Source: Chlorobiota bacterium (GTDB lineage: Bacteria; Bacteroidota; Ignavibacteria; Tepidaquicellales; OLB5). Taken from it: a stretch of 51,044 bases of DNA. The notes under the pieces were generated by a model. The model saw only the letters and a program-made list of their open reading frames with translations, was not told where the DNA came from and searched no databases. Location of the stretch: positions 1-51,044 of the forward strand of contig JAKEEM010000070.1 of NCBI GenBank assembly GCA_022616535.1. Direction: 5' to 3'. The first letter of the stretch is position 1; each line of letters starts with the position of its first letter. Below, one piece after another: positions 9,951-14,891 of the stretch. The position numbers and the translations under genes are program-made.

Positions 9951-12101
9951 ATGAAAAAAAGCTCTCTTCTTTTTGCCCTTCTTGCTTTATCAAATTTAAA
10001 TGTATTATCTCAAGGTTTAAATGATGTGTACTCATCAGGAGGATTTGTATTTGCTGTTGGTACGGGAGGAATTATTCTAAAATCATCAAACGCTGGAAAT
10101 ACATACACGCGCCAAACAGTGGGTAATACAAACTTATATTCTGTCCACGGTGTAAATAACAAGGTTTGGAGTGTGGGAGATAATGGTGTATTCAATTTTA
10201 GTGCCGATTACGGTTCTATTTGGAGTAGCAGTAATATAACAAGCTCAGACTTAAAATCAGTTTTTTTTGTCGACTCACTAACAGGGTTTATAGCAGGTAA
10301 AAACGGAGTAATACTAAAAAGCACCAACGGGGGCAATAACTGGCTAAATTTAACGTCTGGAACCAGCAGTGAGCTGTACAAAGTCAAATTCATTAATTCA
10401 AGCATAGGCTTTGTATGCGGTGCAAACGGAACTATGCTTAAAACTACAGATGGGGGAGCCTCATGGATTCAGATTGCAATACCTGTCAGCACAAATATAA
10501 ATTCATTTGATGTGCTTAATGAATGGATTATTGCAGGGACTGATAATTCGACCATAATTACCTCAACTAATGCTGGGCAGAGCTGGGCTTTGAGAGATTT
10601 TAAGATATATTCTCGTCCTAAAGTCAATTGTATAAACATAACCGCTCAGAATTCATTTCTGGTTACTTTCGAAAGCGGCTCGATTTGGTATAGCACAAAC
10701 AGAGGGAGCTCTTTCAATTACTCTCGCTCACCGTTTCTGGATGAATTAAACTCAGTATCGATAAATTCATCAAGTGCGTATGCAGTTAGTAAAAAACATA
10801 TTATAGTCATCAGGTCGCTTGATAATGGTGTAAATTGGCAGCTGCATCCGAATGCAACATATTCAATTAACTTTCAGGATGTTTTGCCTTTTCAGGGTGC
10901 AAGCTTTAACAAGATTTTCGATATCAATTATCAAAAAAGAAGTGTTGTATATGCATGCCAGCGGAATAAACTTTACAGAAGTCTGAATACCGGTTTGAAC
11001 TGGAGCCAGATATCGACCTTGCCTTTTAATTATGCGTGCCAGCAGCTATTGGTTTCCATGAAAGATTCAGCTAAAATGATTGTAGTTTTAAATAAACAAT
11101 CCATAGATACAGGAATTGTTTACAGGACATCTAACTATGGTTTAAATTGGAGTAAGGTTTACCAAGGCAGTTGGGACTATATAGGGAATTTGATTACACA
11201 GGACCAGCAGCATCCTGAGACGGTTTATTTAGGTGCTAATGATTCTGTTATGAAGTCAACGGATTTCGGGTTGACCTGGATAAAGATAGCTAACTACCCA
11301 TTCAATGATTTCTGCGACATAGCAGTGCATACTTCAAATTCAGAAGTTCTATATGTTTCAACAAACGGCTTTCCGGCTAGGATGCACAAATCAACAAACG
11401 GAGGTTACAATTGGTTTATGATTGATTTTGTTGCGTACACCAATTTCTCGGAAATGCCGGCAATAGCGGTAAGTAATTTAAATCCTAATATAGTTTTTCA
11501 TGCTCAACTTGGCGGGGGTGCTTTACAGACAGGACTTTAAAGGTCGTATTCTCAGGGCAGCACATGGCTTTTTAATCAATTTGCCGGGTTTAGCTGGTCT
11601 GTTGATATAGCCAAAGATGACCCTAATATTTTTGCATACGGAAATGTAAGCTTATCACCCGTATACCTGTCAACAAACGGAGGTGTAAACTTTGTAGGAA
11701 CGCCAAATGTCTGGGCGGAATCGATATTTTATTATGACAGGGCTAATTTATTTATAACGAATGGCAGCGAAGTGAGTAAGATGGTGGTTACTTACAATAT
11801 GCCGATTGGTATTCGTCCTATTTCATCAAATGTCCCTGTTAAGTTCAATCTTTCACAAAATTATCCAAACCCTTTTAATCCTGCAGCAAATATCAAGTTT
11901 GATATTCCTAAATCCGCATTTATTAAGTTAGTTATTTACGATGTTATCGGAAGGGAAGTATCTGTTTTGGTAAATGAACAATTGAGTGCGGGCAGTTATA
12001 AAGCTGACTGGGATGCATCGAATTATCCAAGCGGGGTATATTTTTATAAGTTACAGGCAGGTGATTACAGAGAAACTAAAAAAATGGTGCTGGTAAAGTA
12101 G
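9951..12101 (+). pseudogene. Ycf48/BNR-like T9SS protein split by an in-frame TAA
   Basis: The frame from the ATG at 9951 is open to TAA (11538-11540), and the same frame is then open through 77 codons into the T9SS tail ending at 12101. The intact protein would have about 716 residues. It has a signal peptide (ending NLNVLSQ), many beta-propeller repeats (ILKSSNAGNTY, ILKSTNGGNNW, MLKTTDGGASW), and a sorting tail QNYPNPFNP to KKMVLVK. Around the stop the +1 frame reads VLYR, which suits the repeated (L/V)YR(S/T) pattern better than frame 0. A pair of compensating one-base indels is therefore as likely as a single nonsense change. Without the tail the product could not be sorted by T9SS. Confidence 0.78.
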
Positions 12102-13687: not shown

Positions 13688-13719
13688 TTTGCCTATCTTT
13701 ATAACGTATGTTATCTTTA
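13688..13719 (+). promoter_or_regulatory. Promoter of the 13.7-kb noncoding unit
   Basis: TTTG (13688-13691), a 20-nt spacer and TATCTTTA (13712-13719), followed by CATTGAA. This is almost the same arrangement as at 39316-39347 (TTTG, 20 nt, TATTTTTA, CATTGAA), so the two support each other. The predicted start is near 13726. Confidence 0.55.
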
Positions 13720-13725
13720 CATTGA

Positions 13726-13960
13726 ATCAGAATGTAAGCAAGCGGGGGATAACTAAATAGCGGCAAAAATTGTTATCGGAGGTAAAAAGAGTGCAGCAAC
13801 TTCTGTTTTGATAAACTATTTCTCTTTCGAAGGGCGAGAGACGTAGTTATAATCACGCAGTTAGAGTTGCTGCACTTCGATTTTAAAGCCTTATACTTAG
13901 AAGATACATATTTTTTCTCCTGTTTCATAGGGATAGTTTATCAAAACTATCCCTTTTTTA
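13726..13960 (+). ncRNA. Candidate structured noncoding RNA or leader attenuator
   Basis: About 235 nt with a promoter before and a terminator after, and no convincing ORF. Three pairings are visible: GATAAC/GTTATC (13748-13753 with 13772-13777); GTGCAGCAACT/AGTTGCTGCAC (13791-13801 with 13865-13875), an 11-bp perfect stem; and TTTTGATAAACTAT (13806-13819), the exact complement of 13933-13946. The last pairing would use the 5' arm and loop of the terminator, so it excludes termination, and it crosses the 11-bp stem as a pseudoknot. I do not recognise a known RNA family. It could be an sRNA or a cis attenuator for the TrmB-like gene downstream. Confidence 0.5.
13929..13959 (+). terminator. Rho-independent terminator of the noncoding unit
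   Basis: AGGGATAGTTT (13929-13939), loop ATCA, AAACTATCCCT (13944-13954), then TTTTT. This is an 11-bp perfect stem and one of the clearest terminators in the window. Confidence 0.8.
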
Positions 13961-14009: not shown

Positions 14010-14061
14010 TTGACATAGTAAAATCAATATATTATATTGCAGTAGCTTTAAACTACTGCAA
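14010..14061 (+). promoter_or_regulatory. Consensus-like promoter overlapped by a palindromic operator
   Basis: TTGACA (14010-14015), a 17-nt spacer and TATATT (14033-14038) resemble a classic sigma-70 promoter. The palindrome TTGCAGTAG-N7-CTACTGCAA (14037-14061) runs from the end of the -10 box across the start site to 2 nt before the TTG start of the TrmB-like gene. This is an ideal position for autorepression; the binder is inferred. Confidence 0.5.
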
Positions 14062-14063
14062 TA

Positions 14064-14891
14064 TTGAACGGTGATATTTTAATAGAGAGGTTAAAATCCC
14101 TTGGTTTTAAAGAATATGAATCCAAGGTTCTTCTTGTATTATTAACAGGCACCCCTATGAGCGCTTCAGAAATTGCAAAAGAGGCAAATATTATCAGAAA
14201 TTCAATTTATGACATTCTTAAATCCTTTGTTGAAAAGGGATATTGCAATGAAATTGAGACAAACACCATATTAAATTACCAAATAATAGACCCTTCCGTA
14301 ATTTTGGATAAAATTTCAAGGGATTACAGGGAATCCTTTAATAAGAGGCTCGAAAACCTTAACGAGACCTTCGGTGAACTTCAGGAAATTTATAAAAAAG
14401 AATCCTCAAAAGTCGAGGCACCTGATAAAAATATACATTTAATCAGGGGTTTTAACAAGCATAGAGTTGCCAAACTGATTGAACTTGTTAATAATTCGAA
14501 ATCCGAAATACTAGGAATGTACAGTCCCCGAAGAGTTATAGTGGAAGAGCTTAGCCAGGATGCAAAAAAATTTTTGAAAAGCGGAGGAACAATAAAGTCA
14601 ATTTACCAGCTGAGCGATGATAAAGCAGTTAATTCAGAGCTTCTTAAGGCTTGTGAAATATTTGTAAAAGGCGGCGAGGAGGTCAGGCTTTCAGAGTTTA
14701 AGCTTACCAATACGTTCGTTTTTGATAAAGAAACCGTTTTTTTTAATCTTTCCGATGATAAGACCGTTCCTAAGCATAAACAAGCGGATTTAATCATTAA
14801 AAACAGCGAATTTGCTTTGCATATAAGGGATTTGTTTATGCACTATTGGGTGCAGTCATTAACTATTGAAGAATACAGGAAAAAAGGCTGA
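14064..14891 (+). CDS. TrmB-family transcriptional regulator
   Basis: A 275-residue regulator. Residues of about 5-75 form a winged HTH of the TrmB type: LKSLGFKEYESKVLLVLL, SASEIAKEANIIRNSIYDIL and KGYCNEI. Residues of about 85-130 form a helical, probably coiled-coil linker. Residues of about 135-275 are a PLD-like/TrmB C-terminal sensor-like fold. TrmB proteins often bind sugars or other small ligands, but the ligand here is unknown. The start is a TTG with no Shine-Dalgarno site. The palindrome just upstream suggests it controls its own promoter. Two tiny hydrophobic ORFs follow. Confidence 0.8.
   Translation: MNGDILIERLKSLGFKEYESKVLLVLLTGTPMSASEIAKEANIIRNSIYDILKSFVEKGYCNEIETNTILNYQIIDPSVILDKISRDYRESFNKRLENLNETFGELQEIYKKESSKVEAPDKNIHLIRGFNKHRVAKLIELVNNSKSEILGMYSPRRVIVEELSQDAKKFLKSGGTIKSIYQLSDDKAVNSELLKACEIFVKGGEEVRLSEFKLTNTFVFDKETVFFNLSDDKTVPKHKQADLIIKNSEFALHIRDLFMHYWVQSLTIEEYRKKG

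Follow-up and report, generated by a model that had tools for sequence, protein, structure and literature searches.

A putative stand-alone gene for a structured small RNA in one family of the Ignavibacteria

The window (the whole 51,044-nucleotide stretch of DNA analyzed) contains, at 13725-13960 of the forward strand, what is probably a stand-alone gene encoding a structured small RNA that most likely acts in trans. Its functional part would be a 94-nt rod (13786-13879), with an ordinary intrinsic terminator behind it. The locus combines covarying structure and a lack of coding potential with a promoter and terminator of its own, the promoter not being evident in three homologous loci (G004, G009, and G013), and it apparently represents a real, narrowly distributed, and undescribed RNA family. 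An earlier note on this DNA had proposed a non-coding unit that carries an unrecognized structured RNA with a built-in switch; the first part of that proposal is upheld by conservation, covariation, and the absence of a counterpart in Rfam, while the switch is not.

When 99 related genomes were searched at the DNA level, the 94-nt core turned up in members of the same family, at 72–80% identity; a core alignment from 11 genomes was used to build a covariance model, R1. R1 matches 12 of 15 family genomes, all Ignavibacteria, with exactly one copy in each (E 8e-17 to 2e-25), and scores 90.9 bits at the window locus (E 1.2e-20). The three family genomes without a match are G012 (75% complete), G014 (64% complete), and G007 (97% complete). 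Outside the family, R1 matches none of 29 sister-family genomes and nothing in the remaining sampled genomes of the order, the class (245 sampled), or the phylum (395 sampled) under strict filters, which could miss weak relatives. Among 84,980 species scanned with a DNA pattern, only 10 MAGs were retrieved, all Ignavibacteria or Chlorobi by title, and the core has no match on plasmids or on viral contigs.

All members share the same rod fold of five helices (P1–P5) with small internal loops. The 5' strand of P1 (13790-13801) pairs with 13865-13876, so that the stem of 11 bp previously placed at 13791-13801/13865-13875 is present and in fact comprises 12 bp; across the 12 genomes, eight of these 12 pairs have changed on both sides. 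The 5' strands of P2, P3, and P4 (13803-13806, 13809-13812, and 13814-13820; span 13803-13820) pair with the 3' strands of P4, P3, and P2 (13843-13848, 13852-13855, and 13857-13860; span 13843-13860), and P3 and P4 covary, reading AACTA/TAGTT in the window and AATTGT/ACAATT and GGTTG/CAACC in relatives. The rod is capped by the P5 hairpin, UCUUUCG-AAGGG-CGAGAGA (13823-13841; arms 13823-13829/13835-13841), whose apical AAGGG pentaloop (13830-13834) is invariant across members.

Changes on both sides occur in 13 of the 33 base pairs, as compared to a mean of 3.4 in shuffled controls, none of 500 of which reached this number. As the shuffle control ignores relatedness, two other controls are more telling: sliding the pairing partners leaves 1–5 pairs with changes on both sides, versus 13 in the true pairing, and eight pairs still qualify once the most divergent sequence is dropped. 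P1 has been swapped almost completely in G002, which has GGUAUGGA/UCCAUGCC instead of AGCGCAGC/GCUGCGCU. Every one of the 12 members has a core folding z-score between -3.6 and -7.3, with better folding for the RNA strand than for the complementary one. Of the stems on whose conservation the earlier note had made its reading depend, those of the rod are conserved and covary across 12 genomes. We propose that the RNA acts in trans as a regulatory or protein-binding small RNA, in which the AAGGG loop and conserved internal loops would offer a site where a protein or another RNA docks, and P1 would serve as a clamp that tolerates sequence change. Being conserved, present in a single copy, and invariant in its loop, this RNA offers a concrete way into RNA regulation in the Ignavibacteria.

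The features that delimit the unit are likewise recognizable in relatives. The putative promoter (13688-13719, forward strand) is composed of TCTTTGCC, a spacer of about 20 nt, and TATCTTTA, with TTTG at 13688-13691 and TATCTTTA at 13712-13719; as judged by sequence, it resembles the Bacteroidota promoter consensus of TTTG (-33) and TAnnTTTG (-7) (PMC7366714). The same arrangement, TCTTTGnC...TATgcTATTTTTAC, lies upstream of the RNA in most relatives, and transcription would be expected to start near 13725. A terminator scan places an intrinsic terminator with an 11-bp stem, a loop of 4, and a T-tract at 13929-13954 on the same strand. Both a promoter and a terminator flank the RNA in most relatives, and a terminator-like hairpin is found 3' of the core in every relative examined, the hairpins being unrelated in sequence. 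The full unit of the window folds far more strongly than its shuffles (MFE -73.6 kcal/mol, z -6.5).

Between this promoter and terminator there is no convincing reading frame; the sequence and the terminator scan thus bear out the description of an ORF-poor unit enclosed by a promoter and a strong terminator. Short frames do occur on both strands, as would be expected if the locus were a gene for a small protein, and a minus-strand frame is open in most homologues. However, this frame is shifted in the window copy by a 1-nt indel, no reading frame in the core is common to all 12 homologues, and the core shows compensatory changes, making a small protein gene extremely improbable.

The proposed switch was based on an observation that is correct in itself. 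TTTTGATAAACTAT (13806-13819) and 13933-13946 in the terminator are exact reverse complements, as the earlier note had it; the full match covers 15 nt (13805-13819 with 13933-13947), and dinucleotide shuffling of the upstream part produced not even 13 nt of complementarity in 5000 trials. This match and the adjoining gene for a TrmB-like regulator would suit an attenuator or riboswitch, in which release of 13806-13819 by a ligand or protein would let that strand pair with the terminator, giving read-through into the regulator gene. Known attenuators and riboswitches with intrinsic terminators likewise have a structured RNA 5' of a terminator and a regulator gene; they differ in that, here, the alternative pairing is not conserved, the terminators vary freely, and the downstream gene has a promoter of its own. 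The conserved, mutually exclusive pairing of terminator and antiterminator that defines such elements is missing, as the 15-nt match is unique to this genome and the terminator is complementary to the core over at most 4–6 nt in ten relatives. Moreover, the supposed antiterminator lies within the 5' strands of the covarying P2–P4, and forcing it to pair with the terminator yields -52.7 versus -73.6 kcal/mol, a cost of about 21 kcal/mol. From the order of transcription, P1–P5 would be complete before the terminator is made. The window's genus is represented by one sampled genome, so a species-specific effect of the complementarity is conceivable; nevertheless, we consider an attenuator or riboswitch very unlikely. 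A striking complementarity to a terminator in one genome need not mean a switch.

The neighboring gene also argues for an independent RNA. It was correctly recognized as encoding a TrmB-like regulator (14064-14891, forward strand; PF01978, E 1.5e-15), and has orthologues in the family. It is preceded on the same strand (14010-14061) by a separate promoter, TTGACA-17-TATATT (14010-14038), and by TTGCAGTAGCTTTAAACTACTGCAA (14037-14061), a near-perfect palindrome flanked by the -10 box and the TTG start; in the relatives inspected, both elements are found 3' of the RNA terminator and thus outside the RNA gene. A controlled gene that shares the unit and lacks its own promoter, as an attenuator or riboswitch would have, is therefore not seen. 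In 12 of the 15 family genomes the palindrome is present as a single copy, beside the TrmB start, which suggests autoregulation. It is a likely auto-operator of the TrmB-like gene, and the mRNA of this gene is possibly leaderless or has a very short leader.

The RNA adjoins a TrmB orthologue in 11 of 12 genomes. The exception, G002, has the RNA without a TrmB relative; a short-chain-dehydrogenase-like gene (its identity judged by eye) comes next instead. Conversely, G007 contains a TrmB orthologue with no RNA match beside it. Because the TrmB-like gene has its own promoter and palindrome, the two genes are separable, and the terminator complementarity is not conserved, this is the arrangement of an RNA gene and not of a leader; the RNA gene is independent of the TrmB gene. 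The synteny could nonetheless reflect a functional link. For instance, the RNA might be a cis-acting or partner RNA of the regulator, titrating it or being bound by it. The adjacency in 11 genomes favors such a role, whereas the occurrence of each gene without the other in G007 and G002 and the position of the palindrome, at the TrmB start and not at the RNA promoter, speak against it. TrmB proteins, furthermore, are DNA-binding. Overall, we regard a TrmB partner RNA as quite improbable.

Comparison to known RNAs is consistent with the RNA family having gone unrecognized in the earlier note. No Rfam 15 family reaches its gathering cut-off in the window, and at relaxed thresholds the matches to the window region and to the loci of seven relatives do not rise above chance level, none of them being at the core; for example, the match to BTnc060 in the window scores 16 bits against a cut-off of 229. 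The small SRP RNA (RF00169) was considered for this locus and ruled out, as the genome's SRP RNA is encoded elsewhere, at G000:C3:18497-18594 (68.9 bits); it was also found in 12 further family genomes.

A lineage-specific, divergent 6S RNA, acting as a decoy of RNA polymerase, deserves closer consideration. The 6S and 6S-Flavo models have no match in the window or the relatives' loci at E up to 10, and nothing above their cut-offs in 39 relatives, so that the 6S RNA of these organisms is either missing or unrecognized. The RNA in question is rod-shaped and single-copy, as are 6S RNA (RF00013) and 6S-Flavo (RF01685), and the full unit of the window adopts a rod shape interrupted by a wide bubble. 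However, the flanks that form this bubble are not conserved, and the core, unlike known 6S RNAs, has only small internal loops and lacks the hallmark large central bubble between two long stems in all 12 members. At 94 nt it compares to model lengths of 187 (RF00013) and 108 (RF01685). The lack of a match to the 6S models at the locus and of a detectable core in the sister family further weakens the case, and we consider a divergent 6S RNA unlikely. An initial form of this idea, based on the bubbled rod and on short resemblances to E. coli 6S, was dropped, given the unconserved flanks and the missing model match. A lone 6S-Flavo match was observed in another family genome, G006 (L023 574-678, G006:C76; 50.7 bits, cut-off 85); this could be a stray Bacteroidota contig in the MAG or a divergent 6S RNA.

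A search with the Hfq model detected no Hfq in the 15 family genomes and was positive in five control genomes. The RNA is thus seemingly Hfq-independent, and would more likely act in a protein- or structure-dependent mode than by classic Hfq-type seed pairing. With neither Hfq nor a clear 6S RNA detected in the host, there is a small chance that the RNA belongs to an undescribed protein-binding class, possibly a lineage-specific stand-in for a housekeeping regulator such as 6S.

The closest parallels are in distribution and genomic setting. Chlorobi-1 (RF01696) and Bacteroidales-1 (RF01693) are lineage-specific structured RNA candidates from comparative genomics (PMC2864571); like the present RNA, they are intergenic, covarying, restricted to one lineage each, and of unknown function, but neither matches it in sequence or structure, and the RNA described here is confined to one family of Ignavibacteria. 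Intergenic small RNAs of Bacteroides, such as GibS (PMC7366714), similarly are stand-alone, have promoters of the TTTG/TAnnTTTG type, and occur in hosts without detectable Hfq; we found no homology to them, and the present RNA is much more structured than several of them. Among the papers searched, none treats Ignavibacteria together with 6S RNA, or together with both small RNA and non-coding RNA.

The sequences on either side of the core are more variable. Upstream of it, most relatives have a second, also conserved hairpin with GGCGTCAACGGAGGTAA in the loop (L009, L010, L011, L013, L016, L032; L076:2904-2922). Alignment and search identify a degenerate counterpart of this optional domain at 13741-13785 of the window (forward strand), of which only GATAAC...GTTATC and CGGAGGTAA remain. 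A gene for a secreted protein lies between hairpin and core in G004; in G013, the hairpin, followed by a terminator-like hairpin, is on a different contig and probably separated from the core; and in G002 it is absent. These cases place the hairpin outside the conserved core, and we rejected the 5' GGAGGTAA hairpin as a part of the RNA; the GGCGTCAACGGAGGTAA hairpin is possibly an independent small RNA.

On the 3' side, the core is followed by a conserved single-stranded tail, GCCCTCT, in eight genomes and then, in seven, by AACCTAGCTATTT or a similar sequence. Pairing of this tail with the AAGGGC loop is conceivable. The corresponding pseudoknot, which would join the AAGGG(CG) loop to the (C)GCCCTC tail and is possible in eight genomes, was rejected as part of the core; the tail is absent from G002, G004, and G013, and the pairing is weak in the window.

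In G004, G009, and G013, the core lies directly 3' of the stop codon of a gene for a type IX-secreted protein, with no obvious promoter of the usual type. There, the secreted-protein gene separates the core from the usual promoter region, as seen directly in G004 and as contig ends imply for G009 and G013. The RNA may in these genomes be produced from a less clear promoter of its own, or it may be the 3' end of the secreted-protein mRNA. This position, together with the T-run that often follows just 3' of the core, raises the alternative that the core belongs to upstream mRNAs for secreted proteins, as a processing or terminal element, either a 3'UTR-derived RNA or an extended terminator. Yet the window, G001, G002, and G011 have an upstream promoter with no gene between it and the core, every relative has a second, separate terminator further downstream, and a terminator would not need invariant loops. 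A terminal mRNA element accordingly has a low though appreciable probability, and a stand-alone RNA gene is the reading we prefer. Elsewhere in the window, two ORFs in the same frame (9951-11540 and 11772-12101), the second carrying the C-terminal domain of type IX secretion (Por_Secre_tail), have the appearance of a single secreted-protein gene broken by a stop or frameshift near 11540.
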